This document shows positions 16,153-40,465 of a stretch of DNA of 64,000 nt, piece after piece. The translations under genes were made by a program, and so were the position numbers. The stretch comes from Phycisphaerales bacterium (GTDB lineage Bacteria; Planctomycetota; Phycisphaerae; Phycisphaerales; UBA1924). The stretch lies in the NCBI GenBank assembly GCA_027019265.1, contig JALUWX010000020.1, forward strand, positions 1 through 64,000, read 5' to 3'. Under the pieces are notes generated by a model. That model had not been told where the DNA came from. It did no database searches and saw only the letters and a program-made list of their open reading frames with translations. Numbering within the stretch: position 1 is the stretch's first letter; each line of letters begins with the position of its first letter.

Positions 16153-16181
16153 TTGCGATCCATCCCCCGAGCGGGTACAGT
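16153..16181 (+). promoter_or_regulatory. Promoter of the cobalamin riboswitch transcript
   Basis: TTGCGA at 16153-16158 and TACAGT at 16176-16181 are 17 bases apart. The predicted transcript start near 16188 coincides with the first conserved bases of the riboswitch. Confidence 0.6.
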
Positions 16182-16189
16182 CAACCCGT

Positions 16190-16385
16190 CAAGGTGCCCG
16201 GGACCCCGTCCCGGGTGAAAAGGGAAGTGTGGTGAAACACCACCGCGGACGCGCCGCCGTGAAGGGCAACGACGGACGCTCAATGCACTCGGGATCAACC
16301 CCGGGAGCACGTCACTGAGCTGCTTTCAGCAGCCCGGGAAGACGCGAGCGACCCCGAGCCCCAAGCCGGAAGACCTGCCTCGACG
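16190..16385 (+). promoter_or_regulatory. Cobalamin (B12) riboswitch
   Basis: The element has the landmarks of the B12 aptamer in order: the 5' AGGTGCC arm near 16192, a GC stem, the core GGGAAGTGTGGTGAAAC near 16222, the CGCCGCCGTGAA segment near 16252, further stems, and the B12-box-like AGCCGGAAGACCTGCC near 16364 that closes the basal stem. Such switches repress B12 uptake, synthesis or B12-alternative genes when adenosylcobalamin is bound. It lies on the strand of, and about 180 bases before, a secreted-protein gene. Confidence 0.88.
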
Positions 16386-16529
16386 CTTGTGTGTCGCCCC
16401 TCGCGCAACAGGGACGGCGGACCCGCGCGAGCGTCCTCCCCTCGTCCCGCGCCCCGCCGACATCCCGCGAGAAGCGTCAATCCCGACCCATGGGGAGTGT
16501 CCCGCGCGACATCGGGACAACCACATCGT

Positions 16530-40367: not shown

Positions 40368-40380
40368 CGTCCCATGAAAG

Positions 40381-40465
40381 AGGCCGCGGTGGGATTCGAA
40401 CCCACGATGGGCTTGCGCTCAACGGATTTGCAATCCGTTCCCTTCGTCCACTCGGGCACACGGCC
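40381..40465 (-). tRNA. tRNA-Cys (anticodon GCA) with an unusually long variable arm
   Basis: The 85-base cloverleaf has a seven-pair acceptor stem (GGCCGTG and CGCGGCC), a D arm of class-II style (CCC...GGG), an anticodon stem ACGGA/TCCGT with loop TTGCAAA (anticodon GCA), a 16-base variable region (TGAGCGCAAGCCCATC) that can form its own small stem, and a T arm GTGGG-TTCGAAT-CCCAC. The discriminator is T, the identity base for cysteinyl-tRNA synthetase; tRNA-Ser would have G. CCA is not encoded. A normal tRNA-Cys has a four- or five-base variable loop, so this one has class II shape. Confidence 0.9.

Follow-up and report, generated by a model that had tools for sequence, protein, structure and literature searches.

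A tRNA-Cys with a class II-like long variable arm in the Phycisphaerales

In the 64,000-nucleotide stretch of Phycisphaerales DNA that we analysed (hereafter the window), we observed a tRNA-Cys gene with a long, structured variable arm of the class II type. Judging from its sequence, this gene is very probably the ordinary and essential tRNA-Cys of the organism, in a class II-like form specific to its lineage, and as a structural variant of tRNA-Cys it is new. As a rule, long variable arms are regarded as reserved for the tRNAs of Ser, Leu, Sec and, in bacteria, Tyr, and as a main cue for SerRS; a variable region of 4-5 nt is usual for tRNA-Cys but is no identity element. We propose that a standard bacterial tRNA-Cys, whose variable loop normally has 5 nt, would have received a hairpin in this loop, which in the home gene adds 11 nt, and that such an arm would have been gained and lost repeatedly in the order, often alongside G9 and G13, two core bases of the class II type.

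The gene lies on the minus strand of the window at positions 40381-40465 and reads GGCCGUGUGCCCGAGUGGACGAAGGGAACGGAUUGCAAAUCCGUUGAGCGCAAGCCCAUCGUGGGUUCGAAUCCCACCGCGGCCU. ARAGORN reported a tRNA-Cys(gca) at 40380-40465 (-), and the Rfam family RF00005 matched 40381-40465 (-) with 56.9 bits (E 1.3e-9; threshold 29 bits). An earlier note on this DNA had given it 85 bases with a 16-base variable region, and direct reading of the sequence returned the same lengths. The anticodon GCA (40429-40431, minus strand) and the discriminator base U73 (40381, minus strand), also claimed there, were both read in the sequence, the former being given by ARAGORN as well and the latter by the Rfam alignment. The acceptor, D, anticodon and T stems are of 7, 3, 5 and 5 bp, respectively, which gives a 7/5 acceptor/T arrangement, and CCA is not encoded. 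The variable region UGAGCGCAAGCCCAUC (40406-40421, minus strand) is of 16 nt instead of the 4-5 nt of class I; it can form a short hairpin with a GCAA loop, and the homologous arms of relatives covary. Its stem contains four pairs and one A·C mismatch, 2-3 nt are left unpaired before the T stem, and its first base could alternatively pair with A26. Contrary to what had been stated, the stems are therefore not all perfect, since besides this mismatch the acceptor stem holds one U·G pair. The gene does have its own terminator-like structure, as the same note had proposed: a hairpin of 15 pairs followed by the U-rich tail GTTTTTTG lies immediately downstream at 40372-40340 (-), where the consensus scan found two nested sites for 0.3 expected. 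Elsewhere in the window, at 16175-16396 (+), we observed a cobalamin riboswitch (78.9 bits).

We then consider whether the organism relies on this gene. In the home assembly (3.04 Mb, 122 contigs, 91.5% complete), ARAGORN was run on every one of the 43 matches to RF00005, 41 of which are above the cut-off, and among the 43 typed the anticodon GCA occurs in one tRNA only, the long-arm gene. The question of whether it is the only GCA tRNA of the genome, raised in the earlier note, is thus answered positively within a 91.5%-complete assembly. A second, normal tRNA-Cys was not found in this assembly by RF00005 and ARAGORN, and at this completeness it cannot be fully excluded. A relative of the same family (G095), assembled as a single contig and 99% complete, has one tRNA-Cys among 46 distinct tRNA genes typed, and this tRNA-Cys is of the long form, with a 16-nt arm. 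Since the long form is the sole GCA tRNA of the home assembly and the sole tRNA-Cys of this relative, it is a working tRNA-Cys and not a spare one.

Two further tRNA genes of the home assembly deserve mention. On a 7.7-kb contig (C93:168-236, L039) there is a second tRNA-Ser(GCU), which lacks a long arm and whose acceptor stem is mismatched; a mobile element or a degenerated tRNA is the probable explanation. A 4.3-kb contig (C8:276-349, L041) carries a tRNA-Ile(UAU)-like gene slightly below the Rfam cut-off; the G+C content of this stretch is 32.6%, against around 54-63% in the other stretches examined, and a foreign origin or contamination may explain the gene.

Cys identity depends mainly on U73 and GCA, and Ser identity relies on the variable arm and G73 (PMC9976931). 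The GCA anticodon and U73 are common to all the relatives used. As both are kept in the long form, CysRS, which would read them unchanged, is expected to charge it with cysteine for the reading of UGU and UGC. Rejection by SerRS would be expected too, because G73 is replaced by U73 and the arm projects differently from the tRNA body, with 2-3 unpaired nt on its 3' side compared with 1 in the home genome's four class II tRNA-Ser. By analogy with E. coli SerRS, for which the tertiary shape of the tRNA matters as much as G73 (PMC9976931), a low-level serylation of the long tRNA-Cys is nevertheless possible.

Of 101 genomes of the order, 99 have CysRS, nearly always as one match; the home enzyme carries the conserved cysteine motifs and KMSKS, and a SerRS gene is present as well. 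At three cysteine columns of CysRS, the residue is Cys, coded by TGC or TGT, in all of the long-arm genomes (37/37), and no row of the alignment has a Cys at any of the six strongly conserved Ser columns. Because of these two observations, UGY is, as read from the alignment, Cys in the long-arm genomes as it is in the short-arm ones; the check uses one gene (CysRS) per genome and covers the standard meaning of the codons, not low-level error. The Ser/Cys ambiguity envisaged in the earlier note is therefore not supported.

We then examined the origin of the gene. With its variable region set aside, it is identical at 66 of 69 positions (96%) to the short-arm tRNA-Cys of a genome of the same family (G323), and at 64 of 69 to that of another short-arm genome (G278). 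Identities with the organism's own tRNA-Ser genes reach 44-52 of 69-71 (64-74%), those with its tRNA-Tyr 49/69 and those with its tRNA-Leu(CAA) 47/70. Since the body matches a short-arm tRNA-Cys so much better than any of its own tRNA-Ser, the home gene is, by these comparisons, a tRNA-Cys in which an arm would have been inserted, and not a class II tRNA whose anticodon has changed. The earlier note had left a choice between these two readings. The former, a structurally divergent tRNA-Cys of the lineage, agrees with this 96% identity to a class I tRNA-Cys and with the recurrence of the long form in 37 of 68 genomes of the order. The latter, in which a tRNA of class II, for Ser, Leu or Tyr, took a Cys anticodon and reads UGY with Ser/Cys ambiguity, appears very improbable to us: the length, the long arm, the G9/G13 core and the 3-bp D stem do resemble tRNA-Ser, and SerRS ignores the anticodon (PMC9976931), but none of the own Ser, Leu and Tyr tRNAs tested exceeds 74% identity, base 73 is U, neither G73 nor A73, the arm is offset unlike that of the four class II tRNA-Ser, and the invariant cysteines of CysRS are coded by UGY. 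The likeness of the D arm to that of tRNA-Ser, pointed out in the note, is present; it is not special, as nearly the same D arm already exists in short-arm tRNA-Cys of the family. Differences from tRNA-Ser include G73, another acceptor stem and, in the home genome, a variable region that measures 18-21 nt and leaves 1 nt unpaired on each side.

The inserted arm is a genuine structure. We examined 49 distinct arms of 14-18 nt at five stem pairs and observed standard pairs in 192 of 223 cells, compared with a mean of 139.7 and a maximum of 155 in 2000 shuffles and with 45-85 when the partner was slid, related rows counting more than once so that these values do not amount to a probability. GC, CG, AU and UA all occur at the same stem positions across the arms, and the stem is maintained with compensatory changes. 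The home arm is among the weaker ones, with one mismatch, and that of a congener (G371) has two. The core also differs, A9/A13 of class I tRNA-Cys being often G9/G13 in the long form: G9 and G13 occur together in 70 of 79 distinct long tRNAs and in 8 of 30 short ones (Fisher p 8e-10, on raw counts). In phylogenetically independent pairs, the association of G9/G13 with arm length is not significant (median p 0.22). These two bases may adapt the core to the long arm.

In the literature that we searched, the only long-arm tRNA-Cys is selC* (8/4; PMC7609411), a tRNA-Sec-like form with an A51a bulge described by Mukai et al. in 2017, which is known from anaerobic Firmicutes, Proteobacteria and others, accompanied in some cases by selB* and cysS* (reviewed in PMC7609411). 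It is an additional tRNA-Cys that goes with the Sec machinery. Both tRNAs place Cys identity elements on a long-arm body, selC* sharing GCA or UCA, U73 and the long arm (PMC7609411). A Sec-like or SepRS-type route, with a selC*-type tRNA-Cys or a tRNA-Cys charged with phosphoserine, nonetheless appears extremely improbable for the home gene, whose stems are 7/5 and not 8/4, which lacks the A51a bulge and which is the sole tRNA-Cys found. No SelA match was obtained in the 91.5%-complete home genome, and CysRS is present. For SepRS, the home match of 22 bits, against a cut-off of 380.65, is background, as 13 of 14 control genomes match too and only 2 of them lie above the cut-off. The assignment of the home tRNA to selC* was consequently rejected. 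No published description of a class II tRNA-Cys with 7/5 stems was found, Phycisphaerae and Planctomycetes included, in a search carried out mostly outside subscription journals and tRNA databases. With the canonical class I tRNA-Cys of bacteria, the home gene shares GCA, U73, 7/5 stems and the 66/69 identity outside the variable region; it differs by its 16 nt and hairpin in place of 4-5 nt.

We searched for relatives of this form with a gap pattern running from the anticodon loop to the T loop, which misses tRNA-Cys with other loop letters, on genomes sampled from the order, from its class and from the phylum. Variable-region lengths are bimodal within the order: among the 68 order genomes, which are those with both tRNA-Cys and CysRS used, 37 have a long region (12-18 nt) and 31 a short one (5-6 nt). 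The home family (f1) comprises 15 long and 14 short cases, a second family (f3) is mostly long, two others (f4 and f93) have a single long case each, and the typed genomes of two more (f2 and f94) are short. Outside the order, among the matches listed, tRNA-Cys-like spans of 29-33 correspond to class I or to an unstructured region of at most 8 nt, and no stem-bearing arm was present in the tRNA-Cys of other orders of the phylum. Among 84,980 public genomes, the scan matched at least 118 stretches, at least 82 of which are intact long tRNA-Cys genes, overlapping in part with the genomes of the order sample. The records of these genes are labelled Phycisphaerales, Phycisphaerae, other Planctomycetota or bacteria without a name, and one of them is a complete chromosome, CP087563.1. 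Matches of the pattern outside Planctomycetota are not tRNA-Cys according to ARAGORN. The long form is a trait of one lineage, the order Phycisphaerales of the Planctomycetota. The comparison with related Phycisphaerae suggested in the earlier note thus yields a lineage trait which is not universal, the short form being that of 31 of the 68 genomes. In another family of the class, three loci (L105, L106 and L109) hold a tRNA-Cys with a variable region of 8 nt, e.g. CATATTTC, enlarged and stemless.

The distribution of the two forms was then placed on a tree of CysRS from the 68 genomes, built from frames chosen by homology. On its best version the long/short label changes 13 times, at least 9 of them on strongly supported branches, this tree being a proxy for the species tree on which the transfer of either gene could inflate the counts. 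Parsimony with equal costs and short outgroups gave 6 gains and 7 losses; when gains were made twice as costly, it gave 1 gain and 15 losses. Since the cost scheme has such an effect, the tree does not, overall, distinguish gains from losses. The closest comparison is found within one genus, where the tRNA-Cys of G353 (5 nt) and G172 (16 nt) are identical at 68 of 68 compared positions outside the arm; the other sampled members of the genus all have 16 nt.

Repeated gain and loss suggests that the arm is nearly neutral for decoding and is a tolerated structural variant. An adaptive arm, which would for example protect against nucleases or effectors cutting class I tRNA-Cys or tune the binding of SerRS, CysRS or EF-Tu, the switching then reflecting selection, seems unlikely to us. 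A minimum of 9 switches within the order, the lack of stem-bearing arms in other orders of the phylum among the matches listed, and a stem kept by compensatory changes would fit such a role. However, no column of CysRS was found that cleanly separates long-arm from short-arm genomes, no such nuclease was encountered, and near-neutrality accounts equally well for repeated loss. We give a slightly better, still small, chance to a broader proposal, that switching of tRNA-Cys between class I and class II in one order is under selection, for example by escape from nucleases or integrative elements, with SerRS/CysRS discrimination retuned each time; if this were true, tRNA class would be an evolvable trait, not one fixed by the amino acid.

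In four genomes the long-arm tRNA-Cys is accompanied by a second copy of its 3' half (L159, L178, L193, L198, L200, L207, L212 and L225), identical over 51-56 nt from the anticodon loop to just beyond the end of the gene, of the kind that integrative elements using tRNA-Cys as attachment site leave behind; in CALMPG010000151, the full and 3'-half copies lie about 16.5 kb apart. That such elements swapped the arm, an attP carrying the 3' half of another lineage converting short to long or the reverse, is quite improbable in our opinion, and we regard as equally doubtful the mechanism that this implies, an integration exchanging the gene from the anticodon loop through its 3' end. These four genomes speak for it, since the identity starts at the anticodon loop and includes the arm. 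On the other hand, the rest of the 3' half is identical between G353 and G172, genus-specific acceptor bases included, so that only the arm changed, and no switch could be traced to an element.

A comparable known case is bacterial tRNA-Tyr, a class II tRNA for which long and short arms likewise both exist for one amino acid; in the home genome its arm is of 14 nt and leaves about 3 nt unpaired on the 3' side, and it differs from the tRNA-Cys by GUA and A73. The tRNA-Tyr switch is ancient, separating bacteria from archaea and eukarya (PMC9976931), whereas that of tRNA-Cys is repeated inside one order. Here a structured long arm is carried by a tRNA-Cys that is both sole and essential, and the trait switched at least 9 times in one order; this provides natural minimal pairs, with which the cost of the arm could be directly measured for the interactions with CysRS, SerRS, EF-Tu and the ribosome. 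Annotation rules by which a long arm denotes Ser, Leu or Tyr can be misleading for such genes. Finally, at another locus (L077, genome G343) we observed an odd cluster of tRNA genes, with Met, Ala, a divergent Cys-like tRNA, Ile with the anticodon AAU and a short-arm Leu, resembling a phage tRNA array.
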